A model generated the notes under the pieces. It worked only from the letters and a program-made list of their open reading frames with translations. It was not told where the DNA came from and ran no database searches. Both the position numbers and the translations under genes were made by a program. Of a stretch of 15,156 bases of DNA, positions 896-11,833 are shown piece after piece. The DNA is from Mycoplasmatota bacterium. GTDB taxonomy: Bacteria > Bacillota_I > Bacilli_A > RF39 > UBA660. Every line of letters begins with the position of its first letter. The first letter of the stretch is position 1. The stretch lies in assembly GCA_012840755.1 (NCBI GenBank), contig DUWA01000112.1, positions 1-15,156 of the forward strand, given 5' to 3'.

Positions 896-928
896 ACATC
901 TCTTTTTAATTTTTTGTTAAAAAGATGT
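896..928. promoter_or_regulatory. Inverted repeat abutting the -35 box, possible operator
   Basis: ACATC plus TTTTTAA (896-909, with a 2-nt insertion) faces TTAAAAAGATGT (917-928). The right arm touches the first base of the TTGACA -35 box of the NAD operon promoter. This is a suitable place for a repressor or activator, and the NrtR-type regulator at the end of this operon is the obvious candidate. The binding link is inference only. Confidence 0.35.
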
Positions 929-956
929 TGACAAAAATAATTGTTTTTAATATAAT
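928..956 (+). promoter_or_regulatory. Consensus sigma-A promoter of the NAD-salvage operon
   Basis: TTGACA at 928-933 and TATAAT at 951-956 are separated by 17 bp, a full consensus match. Transcription should begin near 963, leaving a leader of about 140 nt before pncA. Confidence 0.85.
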
Positions 957-1073
957 GTTAATAACAGAGGAAGAAATTTAAATAATTATCTAAAAACACC
1001 ATTTTTTGCGGGAAATTAATCATTAGTAAAATATGCTAATAGATAGTATAAAAACGCGAACTCTGTTATTAAT
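957..1073 (+). ncRNA. Candidate structured 5' leader (cis-regulatory RNA) of the NAD operon
   Basis: A 12-base inverted repeat, TTAATAACAGAG (958-969) with CTCTGTTATTAA (1061-1072), extended by a G-U at 957/1073, closes the whole leader. Inside, 1005-1010 can pair with 1055-1060, stacking directly on the closing helix. 1022-1026 can pair with 1036-1040. 985-991 can pair with 1041-1047 and would cross the 1005-1010/1055-1060 helix as a pseudoknot. The outer repeat is clear; the inner helices are short and AT-rich and could be chance. The repeat begins just upstream of the predicted transcription start, so it might instead act on DNA. I see no match to a riboswitch class I know, including the NAD+ classes. 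No U-tract terminator follows, and the ribosome binding site (about 1091-1098) is outside the closing helix. Confidence 0.4.
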
Positions 1074-1101: not shown

Positions 1102-1722
1102 ATGAAAAAGTTTTACAAAAAAATGAGATTGAAAAAAATGAAAGAGGTTTTAGTCGTTATTGACATGGTAAAAGGTTTTGTACAAGAAGGTAATATGTAT
1201 GATGAAGGAATTAATAATATAACAGAGGAAATTGTTAATATAGTAAAAAAATTCATAAATAAAGATGATAAAGAAATTATAGCTTTTAAAGATGTACACA
1301 CAGAAAGTAGTAAAGAATTGGAAGTGTTTCCAGAACATTGTCTTGAGGGAACTATAGAAGCAGAATTGATTGATCAATTAATACCTTATGAAAAAGCAAT
1401 GAGAGTTTTTGAGAAAAACTCTACGAGTGGTTTTGTAACAAAAAAATTTATGAAATATCTAAGAAAAAATAAATATAAAATAAATAAGTTTGTTATTGTA
1501 GGTTGTTGCACTGATATATGCATAGCAAATTTTGCAATTCCTTTAATTAATTATATAAATGAATATAATCTAGATATTGATGTTGAAGTAGTAGTTAATG
1601 CAATTGAGACATATGATGCGGAGTATCATAATAGAGAAGAGTATAGTAATTTAGGTTTAAAAATGATGAGATTAAATGGTATCTCTTTAGTGAAAAAATA
1701 TAATGGTGATAAATATGAATAA
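1102..1722 (+). CDS. pncA: Nicotinamidase (cysteine hydrolase / isochorismatase-like family)
   Basis: Predicted to hydrolyse nicotinamide to nicotinate plus ammonia, the entry step of NAD salvage, in the cytosol. The 206-residue protein carries the family's catalytic triad: Asp21 in VVIDM, Lys105 in FEKNSTSGF, and Cys140 in GCCTDIC. A likely metal pocket is formed by Asp64 and His66 (KDVH) and His79 (FPEHC), which favours nicotinamidase over isochorismatase. The start at 1102 is chosen because GAGGAGAG lies just upstream. Met13 at 1138 would give the usual family N-terminus, so the lysine-rich first 12 residues may be an extension. It is the first gene of the operon and overlaps pncB by 8 nt. 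Its partner pncB next door makes the assignment strong. Confidence 0.88.
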   Translation: MKKFYKKMRLKKMKEVLVVIDMVKGFVQEGNMYDEGINNITEEIVNIVKKFINKDDKEIIAFKDVHTESSKELEVFPEHCLEGTIEAELIDQLIPYEKAMRVFEKNSTSGFVTKKFMKYLRKNKYKINKFVIVGCCTDICIANFAIPLINYINEYNLDIDVEVVVNAIETYDAEYHNREEYSNLGLKMMRLNGISLVKKYNGDKYE

Positions 1723-3184
1723 TAAAACAATGATGACAGATCTATATGAACTTACAATGTCTCAAGTATACTTTAATGAAAATAAAAAAGATGAAATTGC
1801 TATTTTTGATGCGTTCTTTAGAAAAGAACCAATGGAAAGTGGATATGCAGTAATGGCTGGATTGGATAATTTAATAGAATATATTCAAAACCTAAAATTT
1901 ACTAACGATGATATAGAATATCTCAGAACATTAAATTTGTTTAATGAACCATTCTTAGAATATCTAAAAAATTTTAAATTCACAGGTGAAATATATGCTA
2001 TTCCTGATGGGACGCCTGTTTTCAGAAACACTCCATTAATTACAGTTAAAGCTCCAATTATTGAAACTCAAATTATTGAAACCGCACTTTTGTCTTATTT
2101 AAATGCTGGAATATGTTATGCCACAGCAGCTAGAAGAATTATAGAATCAGCAGGCAATATAAATGTAATGGAGTTTGGTGCAAGAAGGGCATTAGGTCCT
2201 GATGCAGCAGTTGAAGCCAGTAAATGTGCGATAATGGTGGGTGCAATAGGAACAAGTAATGTATTAGCTGGTAAAAAATATAATATTCCAGTAATGGGAA
2301 CAATGGCTCATAGTTTTGTTACGGAGTCAAATAGTGAATACGAAGCATTTTTAAATTTTGCAAAAACATATCCTGACAATTGTTTTTTGCTAGTTGATAC
2401 TTATGATACATTAAAAAGTGGCATACCTAATGCTATTAAAGTGGCGAAGGAATTTTTGCTCCCTAATGGTTATAGATTAAAGGGAATTAGAATAGACTCT
2501 GGCGATCTAGCGTATCTATCAAAAGAGGCAAGAAAAATGTTAGATGATGCAGGCTTTAGAGATGCTAAAATATGTTTATCTAATGGAATAAATAATAAAA
2601 CAATTGAATCATTAAAAATACAAGGTGCAGAAATGGATGTTATTGGTCTAGGAGATAATATTGTTCTGCCTGATAAAGCGAGAGTTGGATGTGTATATAA
2701 AAATGTTGCTATTATTAAAAAAAATCAAATAATTCCAAAAATTAAGCTAAGTGGAGATATAATTAAAACAATTAATCCAGGCTATAAAAAAGTTTACAGA
2801 ATATATGATAAGAAAACAAAATATGCATTAGCTGATTTGATTGCTTTACATGGTGAGGAAATACCAAAAGATAAATATTTATTAATAGATCCTGATGATG
2901 AAACTAATATAAAACATATAAAAGATTATGAAATAGAAGAATTACAAATTCCAATATTTATTGAAGGAAAGTTAGTTTATGAAAATCCAAATGTGTTCAA
3001 GAAAAGAGAATATTGTAATGATCAAATGAAAACATTATATCCTGAAATTAAAAGAATTGAAAAACCACATAAATATTATGTTAATTTAAGTAAGAATCTT
3101 TTAGTTTTGAAAAGAGATATGATTATGAAAATAAAAAACAATAATATTGAAAATAAAAAACAAAAAGTAAAAGGATTAAAATAG
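1715..3184 (+). CDS. pncB: Nicotinate phosphoribosyltransferase
   Basis: Joins nicotinate and PRPP to nicotinate mononucleotide (NaMN), with ATP hydrolysis; cytosolic. Its 489 residues match the usual length of Gram-positive NAPRTases. Visible landmarks are the N-terminal TDLYELTMSQVYF, FGARRA (154-159), GTMAHSF (195-201) with the His199 that is phosphorylated in this family, DTYDT (228-232), RIDSGDL (259-265) and a GDN motif further on. The start at 1715 is preferred over the in-frame ATG at 1703 because GGTGAT sits 4 nt upstream of it. It overlaps the pncA stop, suggesting translational coupling. Its PRPP substrate could come from the PRPP synthetase encoded at 4898 in the same operon. The last ~25 residues are very lysine- and asparagine-rich. 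Confidence 0.95.
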   Translation: MNNKTMMTDLYELTMSQVYFNENKKDEIAIFDAFFRKEPMESGYAVMAGLDNLIEYIQNLKFTNDDIEYLRTLNLFNEPFLEYLKNFKFTGEIYAIPDGTPVFRNTPLITVKAPIIETQIIETALLSYLNAGICYATAARRIIESAGNINVMEFGARRALGPDAAVEASKCAIMVGAIGTSNVLAGKKYNIPVMGTMAHSFVTESNSEYEAFLNFAKTYPDNCFLLVDTYDTLKSGIPNAIKVAKEFLLPNGYRLKGIRIDSGDLAYLSKEARKMLDDAGFRDAKICLSNGINNKTIESLKIQGAEMDVIGLGDNIVLPDKARVGCVYKNVAIIKKNQIIPKIKLSGDIIKTINPGYKKVYRIYDKKTKYALADLIALHGEEIPKDKYLLIDPDDETNIKHIKDYEIEELQIPIFIEGKLVYENPNVFKKREYCNDQMKTLYPEIKRIEKPHKYYVNLSKNLLVLKRDMIMKIKNNNIENKKQKVKGLK

Positions 3185-3190
3185 TGTTTT

Positions 3191-3783
3191 ATGAAAAATG
3201 AAAAACTAGAAGAATTAAAAAAATATATTGAAGAACTTAAGTTAGTAAAAGTTCTTCAAAAAGAAAAAGTGGATGAAGGATTTATAAGTTTGGTACAAAA
3301 AAATGTCTTTTAAATAATGGAAATATAATAACAAGAAATCAAATTTTAAAAAATAATAAAGATGGTAACGCAGCAACTGTGCTACCTATGACAAAAGAAC
3401 ACAATATAGTACTTGTAGTACAACCACGAATATTAACAGAAAAAACAGTTACAGTAGAACTTCCTACTGGATATATAGATGATAATGAAGAGGCAGTTGA
3501 TGCAGCTAGAAGAGAACTAGAAGAAGAAACGGGATATGTATCGGATGAATATATAAACCTTATTAATTATTATCAGGATCAAGGATGCTCAAAAGCCAAA
3601 ATATATAGTTTTTTGGCTTTAAATTGTAAAAAAATAAAAAAACAAAATCTTGATAATGATGAATATATTAAATATTTTGAATGTTCATATGATGAAGCTT
3701 TTGAACTGATAGATCTTGGTTATATTTGTGATGCTAATTCTATACTAGCACTAGAAATGTCTAAAAAATATATAAGAAGGTGA
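3191..3783 (+). pseudogene. Nudix hydrolase, split by a -1 frameshift at a poly-A run
   Basis: A Nudix hydrolase, probably of the ADP-ribose pyrophosphatase type. The reading frame opens at ATG 3191 and stops at 3311-3313 after ~40 codons. The rest continues in the -1 frame to 3783, with the join at or near the A7 run 3297-3303. One extra A there would give a continuous ~197-residue protein reading QKKCLLNNGN across the join. The intact downstream part contains a complete Nudix box, GYIDDNEEAVDAAR followed by RELEEETGY (G-x5-E-x7-REL-x-EE-x-G-Y). An internal ATG at 3379 could start a truncated 134-residue product, but no good ribosome binding site is seen there. Alternatives to a true pseudogene are a sequencing error in the homopolymer, slippage-based phase switching, or programmed -1 frameshifting on A-AAA-AAT. 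It sits 6 nt after pncB and 4 nt before the nadE remnant. Confidence 0.75.
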
Positions 3784-3787
3784 TAAT

Positions 3788-4192
3788 ATGTTGAAAATTT
3801 ATGGATACGTCAGATTAGGAACTGAAGTCCCAAGCCTTAAAGTTGCTAATATAGATTACAATATTATAGAAATTATAAAACAAAAAACTGAAAATACAAT
3901 TGCTTCATACATGTTACATGATTATTTCTTATTTCAATTTTTAAGAAATAGGTATAATCTATCAAAAATTATTATGCATATAAAAAATACTTTAAAATGT
4001 ATATATAATAAAGACAAAATAAGAAAATACCTATGTATCTTTATAAAAAAATTTCTTAATAATCATTTAAAAAGAAACTGTATGACAGATAGACTAAAAA
4101 CAGGAAGTGTTTGTTTGTCTTCAATGAAATATTCTAAGTTGAGAAGTGATGCAGATGCTGATATTAGGTTAAAGGATATAGATAATTCATGA
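3788..4192 (+). pseudogene. nadE: Internally deleted glutamine-dependent NAD+ synthetase
   Basis: Intact NadE amidates NaAD to NAD, and the glutamine-dependent form normally has ~600-650 residues. This 134-residue frame joins its two ends. Residues 1-31 are the start of the glutaminase (nitrilase) domain (GYVRLGTEVPSLKVANIDYN). From about residue 32 on it is the very C-terminus: LHDYFLFQFLR, KRNCMTDRLKTGSVCLS and LRSDAD correspond to the LHDFFLYxFLR, KRSCxPDGPKVGSVSLS and MPSDA blocks of that enzyme. Everything between is missing: the glutaminase Glu-Lys-Cys residues and the ATP-binding SGGxDS loop. The junction lies near 3878-3888. The frame has a strong ribosome binding site (AGGTGAT) and its TGA overlaps the next start as ATGA, so it is probably still translated, but it cannot be an active synthetase. 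The family call is made from memory of the conserved blocks. Confidence 0.8.
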
Positions 4193-4959
4193 AGAGTCTT
4201 CAAGTTTTAACACCTAAAAGGGAATGCATATTTAATTGTCCTTTCTGTATATCAAAAACTCATGTGCATGATAATATGTTTGAAAATAACTATGAGAATA
4301 ATTATGAATTATGGGAAAATAACTTTATTAAAATATTAAAAAATTATGAAGATTTGAAAACAATTGTAATTACAGGAACAAATGATCCTATGCAGGATAT
4401 ATGCTGTATTGAAAAAATAATAGAAATAGTAAGAGAACATAGAAGTGATATTAAAATAGAACTTCAGACTAGATATTATATTAAAAATCAAATATATAAA
4501 AAATTAGATATTGTTGCTTTTAGTATAGATAAATTTAACGTCATTAAGAAAATAGATACAACTGATATAAATGCTCGTTTTGTAATATTGTTAACAGATG
4601 ACTTTAATCAAAAAAGTTTGTATGATATAATAGATTTGATAAATAACAAAGATGTTCAAATAACTTTTAAGTCACTACATTATGGCGAAAACAACAATAA
4701 AATAAGTAATTGGATAAAAAAACACAAAATCGATAGTGCAACATTAGATAAATTGCGTACAGAGATTAATAATTATAGAGGTATTTTATCTATAAGAATT
4801 GATGAAAATTGCATGGATTCAAAGGGCAGATATATGGTTTTTAGAGAAGATGGAAATTTATACCTCGATTTTTATAGTAAAGATAAGGAGTATATAAATG
4901 AACAATATGAAGCTTATAGTAATGGAAAATTGCAAAGAATTAGGAGAAAAAGTAGATGA
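4189..4959 (+). CDS. Radical SAM protein of unknown function
   Basis: A 256-residue protein with the radical SAM cluster motif CIFNCPFC (Cys13, Cys17, Cys20; C-x3-C-x2-C) right at the N-terminus. These cysteines bind a 4Fe-4S cluster that cleaves S-adenosylmethionine. The following VITGTNDPMQD (around residues 60-70) resembles the glycine-containing SAM-binding strand of the family. No second cysteine-rich (SPASM-like) domain is visible, and the protein is short. It overlaps the nadE remnant by ATGA and runs 62 nt into the PRPP synthetase gene, so it is deeply embedded in the NAD operon. It has no signs of decay, unlike its neighbours. I cannot name a substrate; a nucleotide or pyridine-related role is only suggested by context. 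Confidence 0.85.
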   Translation: MKSLQVLTPKRECIFNCPFCISKTHVHDNMFENNYENNYELWENNFIKILKNYEDLKTIVITGTNDPMQDICCIEKIIEIVREHRSDIKIELQTRYYIKNQIYKKLDIVAFSIDKFNVIKKIDTTDINARFVILLTDDFNQKSLYDIIDLINNKDVQITFKSLHYGENNNKISNWIKKHKIDSATLDKLRTEINNYRGILSIRIDENCMDSKGRYMVFREDGNLYLDFYSKDKEYINEQYEAYSNGKLQRIRRKSR

Positions 4960-5983
4960 ACATTTAAAAAGAATGAATCACAATGGTAGTTATATTGCTT
5001 CTATAAGTAATGAGAGATTTAGTAACGGTGAGGGTAAAATAAAAATTAATGAAACTGTAAGAGAAAAAGATTTATACATAATAACAGATATAGGAAATTA
5101 CAGTCAATATTACAAAATGCATGGGCAACCTCATTATATGTCTCCAGATGAACATTATCAAGATGTAAAAAGAGTTATTTCTGCAACATGTGGAGGAGCA
5201 AGCAAAATAACACTTATAATGCCACTTTTATATCAATCAAGACAAGATAAAAGAAAAGGAAGAGAATCGTTAGACTGTGCTATTGCATTACAAGAACTAG
5301 AACAATTGGGAGTAAATACAATAGTTACATTTGATGCTCATAATCCTGGTATTTGTAATGCTATTCCTAAATTACCTTTTGAAAATTTTTATCCAACCCA
5401 TATAATTTTAGAAAAATTTATAGAAAATGAAACTGAAGATATTGGCAATTTATTAGTATTTGCTCCTGATATGGGAGCGACTGAAAGGGCGAGATACTAT
5501 GCAGAGATGCTAGGTTGTGATATGGGTGCCTTTTATAAAAGAAGAGATTTGAGTAAAGTCGTAAATGGCAAAAATCCAATTATTGATCATGTGTATATGG
5601 GACCTGATATTAAGGGAAAAAATGCTATTATAGTTGATGATATGATAGCATCAGGCCAATCTATGATTGAAGTAGCAGAATTATTAAAAGATAAGGGAGC
5701 TAAAAATATATACCTAGTAGCAACATTTGCTCTTTTAACAGAAGGTGTTGAAAATTTTGTTAAAGCCTATGAGAAGGGTATTTTTACTAAGTTATACTCA
5801 ACAAATTTATCTTATGTACCAGAAAAAATAAAAAAAGAGAGATGGTACTGTGATGTTGATTGTTCATATCAAATTGCTCAAATAATTAATTATTTGAATA
5901 ATAAAAAATCATTAGCTCCTTTGTATAATGGAAAAAAAGATATTTTAGATAAAATAGAGAGAGTTATGGTTAAATGCGAATAG
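4898..5983 (+). CDS. prs: Ribose-phosphate pyrophosphokinase (PRPP synthetase), long divergent form
   Basis: Makes PRPP from ribose 5-phosphate and ATP; PRPP is the co-substrate of PncB two genes upstream. Landmarks are FSNGE (41-45), the ATP loop SRQDKRKGRE (114-123), FDAH (145-148), FAPDMGATERA (188-198) and the PRPP loop VDDMIASGQS (246-255). At 361 residues it is longer than the ~315 of housekeeping Prs. It has an insertion around 67-90 and a C-terminal tail, and its PRPP loop differs from the usual VDDxxDTxGT. This suggests a dedicated second copy rather than the housekeeping enzyme. The start at 4898 is set by AAGGAG at 4885-4890 and lies inside the radical SAM gene. The final codons overlap the nadD remnant. 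Confidence 0.9.
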   Translation: MNNMKLIVMENCKELGEKVDEHLKRMNHNGSYIASISNERFSNGEGKIKINETVREKDLYIITDIGNYSQYYKMHGQPHYMSPDEHYQDVKRVISATCGGASKITLIMPLLYQSRQDKRKGRESLDCAIALQELEQLGVNTIVTFDAHNPGICNAIPKLPFENFYPTHIILEKFIENETEDIGNLLVFAPDMGATERARYYAEMLGCDMGAFYKRRDLSKVVNGKNPIIDHVYMGPDIKGKNAIIVDDMIASGQSMIEVAELLKDKGAKNIYLVATFALLTEGVENFVKAYEKGIFTKLYSTNLSYVPEKIKKERWYCDVDCSYQIAQIINYLNNKKSLAPLYNGKKDILDKIERVMVKCE

Positions 5984-6197
5984 GCATTTTTGGAGGAAGA
6001 TTTATTTGTTAATAACTATTTAGATAAATTGATATTTGTACCGATAGGTAATAAATATAAAAAGTCAAATTTAATTAATGGAAAAAATCAGATATAATCT
6101 GATCAATTGAAAGTATGTTAGATAAAGATATTTTTATGTATATAATAAAAATAACATATAGAAGAATAATAAAGCAACATTATATCAATATATAAAA
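5974..6197 (+). pseudogene. nadD: Remnant of nicotinate-nucleotide adenylyltransferase
   Basis: NadD turns NaMN into NaAD. ATG 5974, inside the end of prs, opens MRIGIFGG, the typical NadD start with the GxFGGSFDP nucleotide-binding segment, then stops after 12 codons. In another frame from 6011, NNYLDKLIFVPIGNKYKKSN resembles the NadD LDKVIFVPTG region. Short scraps further on (around 6118-6140 and 6170-6197) recall later parts of the protein. The Hx(G)H active site, and most of the ~190 to 200-residue length, are gone. The gene position (after prs, before the regulator) fits a NAD operon. Confidence in decay is high; the exact end is uncertain. Confidence 0.6.
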
Positions 6198-6207
6198 GAG
6201 GTGTTAT

Positions 6208-7026
6208 ATGGAACAATATAATTCGGAAGAGGAATTTTTAAAAAATTATGATTCAAGTGTCTTTGAAAAACTTTCTATGACAACAGATATTATTATATTT
6301 AGTGTATCTAATGGAAATCGCACAAATTATAGAAAATTAAAGGAAAAATATTTTAGTGTTTTATTAGTAAAAAGAAATACCTATCCATATAAAGAAAAAT
6401 GGTGCTTACCAGGTGGATTTTTAAACATGGATGAAACATTAGATGAAGCAGCTACAAGAATATTAGCTACAGAGACAAATCTTCACAATATTTATATGGA
6501 GCAATTATATACTTTTAGCGATTTAAATAGGGATCCTAGAATGAGAATAGTGAGTACTTCATATATGGCGCTTGTGGATAAAAACAGATTAAACGATAAG
6601 TTATATCCTAATGCGAGTTGGTTTAATATGATCATTCTTGAAGATGAAAAAGGTATTAACATAATGTTTGATAATGGAATTGAAGAATTTAATATTGTTT
6701 TAGAAAAACATTTAATAGAGAAGACATCAGGACGTTATGATTACGTGGTTGTAAAAAATGATCATCTTGCTTTTGATCATGCTTTAGTCCTTGCCACAGG
6801 AATATCTAGACTTAAAAATAAGATAGAATATACTGATATAGTATTTAATATGATGCCAGAGTATTTTTCATTAGGGGAATTACAGCAAGTATATGAAGTT
6901 ATTTTAGGAAAAAAATTATTAGATCCAGCTTTTAGAAGAATTATTGCTGATAAAGTTGAAAAAACAGATAAAATTAAAACTGGTGGTGGTCACCGGCCAT
7001 CAGCTCTATTTAGATATAAAGGTTAA
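6208..7026 (+). CDS. NrtR-type transcriptional regulator (Nudix sensor domain plus winged helix)
   Basis: 272 residues with two parts. Residues ~20-160 form a Nudix-fold domain and ~210-272 a winged helix-turn-helix (LGELQQVYEVIL, then a GGGHRPSALFRYK end). This architecture defines the NrtR family, regulators of NAD metabolism that sense ADP-ribose or related compounds. The Nudix box (Gly70 to Leu92) is degenerate: the REUxEE core reads RILATE, so two of three metal-binding glutamates are lost. It is therefore expected to bind a ligand rather than hydrolyse it. The start follows AGAGGTG at 6197-6203. Last gene of the NAD operon, it probably controls the operon and itself; candidate operators are the inverted repeats near 896-928 and 958-1072. 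Confidence 0.85.
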   Translation: MEQYNSEEEFLKNYDSSVFEKLSMTTDIIIFSVSNGNRTNYRKLKEKYFSVLLVKRNTYPYKEKWCLPGGFLNMDETLDEAATRILATETNLHNIYMEQLYTFSDLNRDPRMRIVSTSYMALVDKNRLNDKLYPNASWFNMIILEDEKGINIMFDNGIEEFNIVLEKHLIEKTSGRYDYVVVKNDHLAFDHALVLATGISRLKNKIEYTDIVFNMMPEYFSLGELQQVYEVILGKKLLDPAFRRIIADKVEKTDKIKTGGGHRPSALFRYKG

Positions 7027-10906: not shown

Positions 10907-11833
10907 ATGGTGAAGAAAACATTCAAAAGTCTAGATGAGCAAATTCAAATATTACGTTCAAAAGGTTTAATTATAAAGGATGAAGAAAAAACAAAAGAGG
11001 TTTTACTAAGAGAAAATTATTTTTTCATCAGCGGATATAGGCATTTGTTTATGCTAAACAACAATAGATATTTCATATTTGGAACAACCTTTGAAGAACT
11101 TTATGCCACATTCTTATTTGATAGAGGAATTAGAAATATAATGTTTAAATATATTTTAGTAGTAGAAAATAATATAAAATCAATAATTAGTTACCAATTG
11201 TCTAAAAAGTATGGTTTTAAGGAAGAAGATTATTTGAATACTAAAAATTATAATCAAGATATATTAAAACAAAGACAAGTAAATGATGTCATCGAAAAGA
11301 TGAAACGACAAATAAGAGTTAATGGTAGAAAACATAAAGCAACCTTACACTATATAAATAATTATGGATATATACCTATGTGGATTTTAGTTAAGGTTTT
11401 ATCCTTTGGGATTATAGCTGAACTATATGCTATATTAAAAGAAACTGACCAATCTTCTATATCTAATTTTTATGAATTAGATATAGATACTTTAAAGACG
11501 AATCTTTATATATTAGCAAATTTTAGAAATTTGTGTGCTCATGAAGATATTTTATATGATCATAGAACACAAAAAAATATAAAAGATACAAATTTTCATT
11601 ATTTACTTGATATTCCTAAATATGATGATGAGTATATATATGGTAAAAATGATTTGTTTGCTTTAGTAATTATATTAAAACAAATGCTTACTGATGTTCA
11701 ATTTAGAGAATTCATATATGAAGTTGGTTATGAAATAGATATTTTGGATGGTAGAGTAAACACTGTCTCACTAATAGATATTTTAAATAAAATAGGTTTT
11801 CCATCAAATTGGAGAGATATAGTAAATTTTTAA
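10907..11833 (+). CDS. Abi-family abortive infection protein (Abi_2, AbiD/AbiF-like, HEPN RNase fold)
   Basis: 308 residues matching the Abi_2 layout in order: NYFFISGYRHLF (38-48), the helix around FDRGIRNIMFKYILVVENN (71-89), IPMWILVKVLSFGIIAELY (156-174) and NFRNLCAHEDILYDHR (205-220). The last contains an R-x4-H motif (Arg207, His212) typical of HEPN ribonuclease toxins. Family members stop phage growth, probably by cutting cellular RNA when infection is sensed. It has its own promoter and follows a terminator. Its stop is 12 nt before the protease start, so the two may share a message. No antitoxin gene is adjacent. Base use resembles the neighbours, giving no sign of recent transfer. 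Confidence 0.9.
   Translation: MVKKTFKSLDEQIQILRSKGLIIKDEEKTKEVLLRENYFFISGYRHLFMLNNNRYFIFGTTFEELYATFLFDRGIRNIMFKYILVVENNIKSIISYQLSKKYGFKEEDYLNTKNYNQDILKQRQVNDVIEKMKRQIRVNGRKHKATLHYINNYGYIPMWILVKVLSFGIIAELYAILKETDQSSISNFYELDIDTLKTNLYILANFRNLCAHEDILYDHRTQKNIKDTNFHYLLDIPKYDDEYIYGKNDLFALVIILKQMLTDVQFREFIYEVGYEIDILDGRVNTVSLIDILNKIGFPSNWRDIVNF

Follow-up and report, generated by a model that had tools for sequence, protein, structure and literature searches.

A nadE gene reduced to its two ends in a partly broken NAD-salvage operon of a Mycoplasmatota bacterium

The NAD-salvage operon of the window

The window, by which we mean the whole stretch of DNA analysed here (15,156 nucleotides, positions 1 to 15,156 of contig DUWA01000112.1, assembly GCA_012840755.1), carries on its forward strand an operon for NAD salvage in which three genes are broken and not one: nadE, nadD and a NUDIX hydrolase gene. 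The original prediction was concerned with nadE; by sequence comparison, the damage reaches beyond it to nadD and the NUDIX gene and spares pncA, pncB, prs and nrtR. The features are listed below, where L numbers are compared loci and P0001 is a protein match described in the next section.

928..1073, + strand: candidate promoter TTGACA-N17-TATAAT and two operator-like boxes (957-965 and 1065-1073)
1102..1722, + strand: pncA-like nicotinamidase gene (isochorismatase family), intact (PF00857, 7.8e-24)
1703..3184, + strand: pncB, nicotinate phosphoribosyltransferase, intact (NF006695, 603 bits against a cut-off of 469)
3191..3783, + strand: NUDIX hydrolase gene, frame-broken (tblastn with the L037, L038 and L021 NUDIX proteins, and frame translations)
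3775..3780, + strand: Shine-Dalgarno AGAAGG, 7 nt before the ATG of the nadE remnant and overlapping the end of the NUDIX gene (sequence)
3788..4192, + strand: nadE remnant, an uninterrupted frame of 134 codons and a stop (NF002730, NadE alignment, P0001)
3788..3880, + strand: N-terminal 31 codons of nadE (65% identity to the N-terminus of L029 NadE)
3881..4189, + strand: last 103 codons of nadE, with most amino-acid constraint gone (changed invariant columns)
4189..4192, + strand: ATGA, start of the radical SAM gene overlapping the stop of the remnant on the same strand (sequence)
4189..4959, + strand: radical SAM gene, intact (53% to L022, 51% to L015; PF04055 below cut-off)
4898..5983, + strand: prs, ribose-phosphate diphosphokinase (NF005299, 446 bits against 327)
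5974..6091, + strand: nadD scrap (tblastn with L038 and L037 NadD, E 9e-6 and 5e-5)
6208..7026, + strand: nrtR-like NUDIX regulator gene, intact (NrtR_WHD, 1.8e-16, 60 bits, above cut-off)

The NUDIX hydrolase gene is split between two frames, with one piece at 3191-3313 and the remainder, up to 3783, in another frame; the GTG at 3379 from which the open reading frame had been listed is not its true start. The nadD scrap consists of ten codons 90% identical to L038 NadD, a frame shift and about 30 residues at 52%, and tblastn with the L038 and L037 NadD found no NadD match past it. The nrtR-like protein scores 160 bits with the NCBIfam model NF050029, below the cut-off of 400. Five tRNA genes are clustered at 276-719, just upstream of the operon, and at 10907-11833, between an amidase and a trypsin/PDZ protease, lies the gene of an Abi_2-like protein (PF07751, 1.5e-39), possibly an abortive-infection gene.

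The start of the radical SAM gene agrees in position with that of the relative L022. At its other end the frame runs on for about 27 codons beyond the end of its relatives (4873-4959), overlapping the start of prs, and does so likewise in the near-identical protein P0003. Among 98 genomes of the family the gene is strongly matched in only three, with a fourth, weak match in G062 (9.4e-4), and in all three strongly matching genomes it adjoins the nadE slot, directly behind it. The small radical SAM protein has 167 relatives in the protein search.

Comparison of 25 loci showed the full order pncA-pncB-nudix-nadE-prs-nadD-nrtR in L167 and L038, while the remaining loci carry subsets of the operon, often with the addition of cinA and nadK. 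The nadE slot is occupied in the relatives either by a glutamine type of 640 amino acids or by an ammonia type of 260 amino acids. The same operon is also found in records labelled Bacilli, Tenericutes and Erysipelotrichales (L036, L037, L038, L042). The nearest pncB (69%) is that of L035, whose genome has a short nadE on another contig, beside an nrtR; unlinked replacements of nadE do therefore exist.

The two operator-like boxes of the leader can pair as a long hairpin (fold z -4.03). Of 16 loci, the window counted, 12 have boxes of the type GTTAATAAC / GTTATTAA(C or T) ahead of pncA; the other four (L168, L169, L036 and L037) lack them. Our guess is that they are putative NrtR sites, and the NAD-salvage operon of the window is probably NrtR-controlled. 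The leader matched no known RNA family at gathering scores; a sub-threshold match to U7 there (E up to 1) was taken as chance.

Extent of the nadE remnant and reality of the deletion

The frame at 3788-4192 is the dead remnant of a gene for a glutamine-dependent NAD synthetase. It begins with ATG and encodes 134 amino acids (table 11), of which residues 30-133 match positions 553-672 of the NAD(+) synthase model NF002730 (677 positions; 4.4e-16). The score of 58.2 bits, 52 bits in the genome search, is below the cut-off of 473, and a Pfam scan of the remnant at E up to 1 gave zero families. In the N-terminal part all four residues that are invariant in the family are kept, while residues 32-134 align with the C-terminus of the intact NadE of relatives at 45% identity at most (L159). 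Compared to L029 NadE (643 amino acids) the remnant is without residues 32-541, approximately 510 residues comprising the glutaminase domain and the ATP site. The solved NadE relative 3dla aligns with an intact NadE of the family over almost its entire length, so that the missing part is the enzyme itself. The nitrilase-type glutaminase, whose catalytic residues we take to be Glu, Lys and Cys, has its site in a region absent from the alignment of the remnant and gave no Pfam match, and the region of the synthetase ATP site SGGLDS is absent from the same alignment. An in-frame deletion inside nadE has thus brought codon 31 next to the final 103 codons, and the product has neither active site.

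These data agree with the original prediction, which had described a normal NadE N-terminus fused to the last ~100 residues with the loss of about 500 residues and both active sites: aligned to full-length NadE, the 134 residues match both ends and the middle is absent. The predicted preservation of the Shine-Dalgarno and of the ATGA overlap is also borne out, both being present in the sequence. The remnant is homologous at both of its ends to glutamine-dependent NadE (NF002730; 3dla) and occupies the slot that nadE has in the operons of relatives; it differs from NadE in being without the nitrilase-type and ATP-pyrophosphatase domains and in the change of 26 of 45 invariant C-terminal columns.

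The deletion junction is best placed at 3880/3881, between codons 31 and 32 (EIIK|QKTEN), with an uncertainty of a few bases, because the string EIIK on the N-side is found in L159 and L160 and QKTEN belongs to the C-side. In L029 the hexamer GAAATT is found, in identical phase, at each of the two sites where the deletion would end, which may be a hint of microhomology at the junction, the comparison being made via L029 and not with the lost ends of the window itself.

A draft assembly of 219 contigs might produce such a join by collapse or as a chimera, in an organism having a full-length nadE at the locus. In a search of 5.77 billion protein sequences, which yielded 19 candidates sharing words and length with the remnant, the sole match was P0001, a protein of equally 134 amino acids with three residue differences. 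Its cluster has three member sequences on three contigs, the longest of 3375 bases, and one of the members may be the protein of the window itself; the representative is not, given the three differing residues and a longest contig shorter than the window. The radical SAM protein likewise has a near-identical second copy, P0003 (253 of 256 residues identical), again with 3375 bases as the longest contig. Since the same join is present on a different contig in a protein with three differences, an assembly error behind the remnant is unlikely, and the sequence decay of the remnant is not what a chimera would produce; collapse or chimera is to us the least probable of all the explanations considered, and a very improbable one.

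A search of the rest of the genome for an intact nadE, which the original prediction had proposed, found none: the profile search detected no second NAD synthase in the assembly, which is 89.47% complete. Its lone PF02540 match (30 bits, positions 18-82) is inside a frame of 373 amino acids, and weak matches of a similar kind occur in most genomes of the family. A padded search for a full-length allele gave one match among 123 candidates of full-length size, P0002, of 656 amino acids and 35% identical, a result which does not exclude a full-length allele in the same species.

One further locus was considered as a second decayed nadE and dropped. In L150 (G049) the first C-terminal match contained stops; a group II intron match (RF02005, 7639-7870) lies upstream of the C-terminal piece of nadE, and 91 residues of this piece align free of stops, at 43%, to L037. 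On account of the intron match and the stop-free alignment G049 is not a parallel; tblastn found no N-terminal piece of nadE on the contig of this region (L150:7639-8542).

Amino-acid constraint, open frame and explanations for its retention

Constraint was measured, gene by gene, on columns that do not vary among the best-matching relatives (14 at most), by counting how many of them the window changes. With ten intact NadE as the reference the remnant, over residues 30-134, departs from 26 of 45 invariant columns, where the intact proteins change 0-6; in the per-gene run with 11 relatives the figure is 24/44, and when 16 NadE of the class are the reference it differs at seven of 16 invariant columns (intact NadE 0-4). 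The neighbouring genes gave 0/15 for pncA, 5/105 for pncB, 3/28 for the second piece of the NUDIX gene, 4/110 for prs (8 relatives) and 2/50 for nrtR, all of which fall inside the leave-one-out range of the relatives themselves. By this measure pncA, pncB, prs and nrtR show sequence constraint as it is in relatives. The radical SAM gene changes 51 of 144 columns, a fraction of 0.35 as compared to 0.37 and 0.38 for its two relatives; as there are only these two, and the mean identity is 0.51 between window and relatives and 0.63 between the relatives, this value says little.

The larger part of the remnant has lost most of its amino-acid constraint and has nevertheless, when set against a modelled null, kept an open frame. 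Read in either of the two alternative forward frames, the stretch contains 17 stops; the coding frame has the terminal one only. The null model took the matching codons of six intact genes as its starting point and allowed drift, with GC set close to the third-position value, up to the observed decay of 26 changed columns out of 45. Of 1800 such runs not one remained stop-free, the mean number of stops being 7.1 to 7.9. By equilibrium GC, stop-free runs were 0/750 (GC 0.16), 2/750 (0.30) and 12/750 (0.50), and at half the decay 25/750, 35/750 and 87/750, respectively. With indels added survival was lower still, where it had been above zero. These P values are flattered by the selection of the case, since open frames are those that a reader picks out, and the simulation counts changes which preceded the deletion indistinguishably from later ones. 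In a model in which stops are blocked and everything else is free, the 26 changes were only slightly milder than expected (P 0.04-0.20 in 12 settings), so that their severity is not clearly different from this model. Conservation is higher in the N-terminal 31 residues than in the rest; the stop-blocked model retained 20 or more of these 31 in 51 of 750 runs, a mild misfit. Viewed as a pseudogene, the remnant shows the loss of essential parts (~510 of 643 residues relative to L029) and the loss of amino-acid constraint (26/45 columns), and does not show a frame kept no better than chance, going by the neutral simulations; the frame of this dead gene has been retained well past neutral expectation.

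Our best reading, a tentative one to which we assign a probability of about 0.45, is that of a dead enzyme gene whose frame is kept for translation. Ribosomes would load at the strong Shine-Dalgarno of the remnant, cross it, terminate at the ATGA and reinitiate at the radical SAM gene; the SD-like AAAGGA of the latter is poorly spaced, 12 nt from its start. If ribosomes must traverse the remnant to reach the radical SAM gene, stops would be selected against and missense changes tolerated, and the frame would be a translated bridge and not an enzyme. The near-identical copies also count in favour of this reading, as they differ in 3 of 134 residues for the remnant (P0001) and in 3 of 256 for the radical SAM protein. 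The original prediction had suggested selection for the translation of both downstream genes: this is plausible for the radical SAM gene, given the ATGA and the AAAGGA at 12 nt, and unlikely for prs, which has a good site of its own (AAGGAG at 4885-4890, 7 nt before the ATG), so that the putative coupling, if it exists, would feed the former and not the latter. Against such a bridge stands that it would serve the radical SAM gene alone, a gene strongly matched in only 3 of the 98 family genomes, and that in the relative L166, whose radical SAM gene has AAAGGAG at 7 nt from its start, nadE ends 2 nt upstream of this start, the close linkage thus not being special to the window.

Of the other explanations, the one we consider least improbable, while still unlikely, is that the C-terminal changes arose in a full-length, translated gene under relaxed or shifted constraint and that the deletion is recent, leaving little time to lose the frame. 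The undecayed look of the 31 N-terminal residues, the small distance to P0001 (3 of 134 residues) and the open frame itself all speak for it, but a working enzyme is hard to picture with seven changes at columns invariant in 16 NadE, where intact proteins have 0-4, and no full-length carrier was found, the single match among the 123 full-length-sized candidates being 35% identical. We are more doubtful that the 134-residue product is a new small protein, such as a helical or regulatory remnant with the NAD operon or the enzymes encoded there as its target. Its frame is open, has a strong ribosome site and is kept in another copy, and 13 of the 26 changes score at least 0 in BLOSUM62, as simulations often do (P 0.18-0.52); on the other side only one near relative is known, and the AlphaFold2 model has a mean pLDDT of 54.8 and a pTM of 0.41, with residues 1-14, 31-38 and 96-122 below 50. 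In the AlphaFold2 run with NadE rows (8 rows) only blocks at residues 51-90 average above 70. The modelling thus lends no support to a folded mini-enzyme, and with 8 rows would not disprove a small protein.

Slightly less probable again is plain neutral decay in which the frame stayed open by chance, a possibility the original prediction had raised and which fits badly with 26 of 45 columns changed and not one of the 1800 neutral runs stop-free at the observed decay. The chance of an in-frame deletion is about one in three, the frames of the neighbouring nadD and NUDIX genes are broken and cases with open frames are the ones that get noticed; even at half the decay, however, stop-free runs were no more than 25/750 (GC 0.16) to 87/750 (GC 0.50).

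NAD supply in the family and relation to known systems

Presence of the NAD genes was counted in 98 genomes of the family, the own genome included, with thresholds set by us. NAD synthase (above 90 bits) is found in 29 of them, NadD (above 100 bits) also in 29, of which 26 are above the curated cut-off, and pncB (above 400 bits) in 28, of which 27 are above the cut-off. When G000 and G104 (68% complete) are set aside, the remaining 26 genomes with pncB all have both nadE and nadD; 66 of the 98 have none of the three at these thresholds. PnuC is present in 17 of the 98 and was not found in the own genome. A PF01467 protein of 340-420 amino acids, which we take to be TmcAL, is present in about 73 of the 98, many of them without any other PF01467 protein; in the own assembly, 89.47% complete, nothing matched PF01467 with an E value of up to 1, and the missing 340-420 residue protein may reflect a real loss or plain incompleteness.

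On balance, the tenth of the genome that is not in the assembly more likely than not holds replacement copies of nadE and nadD, in view of the 26 out of 26 pncB genomes with both genes and of the conservation of pncA, pncB and nrtR. The alternative, that the cell has given up making NAD, would be more surprising; upon total loss of nadD and nadE the product of PncB would be a dead end. We consider it a long shot that the dead nadE is purely a bridge for translation and that at the same time, without NadD and NadE, nicotinate mononucleotide is used for something else than NAD synthesis, as the constraint on PncA, PncB and NrtR might be taken to indicate.

To our knowledge a nadE remnant of such a kind has not been reported, as far as titles and the beginnings of abstracts tell. 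Translated leader and upstream frames exist which are kept for their translation and not for their product. The remnant would share with these a free amino-acid sequence and a kept frame and differs by its origin as an eroded gene in the middle of an operon. Termination-reinitiation coupling at ATGA overlaps is the subject of PMC6728339; the remnant and the radical SAM gene likewise overlap by ATGA, with the difference that here a dead enzyme gene supplies the upstream frame and that the coupling is a putative one. Reduced genomes and lost pathways are known from gut bacteria, as outlined in PMC12306168 and PMC6784871. With the uncultured gut bacteria of the latter, whose genome reduction comes with lost vitamin pathways, the small genome is shared, in a family with 66 of 98 genomes free of nadE, nadD and pncB at our thresholds; in the window the loss is seen at an intermediate stage, at which pncA, pncB and nrtR remain constrained. 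NAD-independent strains of Mycoplasma synoviae (PMC8540111) share a route toward deamido-NAD without a recognised final step; their pathway reaches deamido-NAD, whereas the searches of the own genome turned up no adenylyltransferase either.

The remnant offers a countable case in which selection seems to act on the open frame and not on the protein. If this is true, bacterial pseudogene calls that look only at the frame would overlook dead genes like this one, and lost constraint combined with a kept frame could be used to look for them. For the family, the window represents the dismantling of an NAD operon seen part-way, where nadE, nadD and pncB are all missing at our thresholds from 66 of the 98 genomes, and the constrained pncA, pncB and nrtR without a visible nadD or nadE pose a direct question that a complete genome can test.
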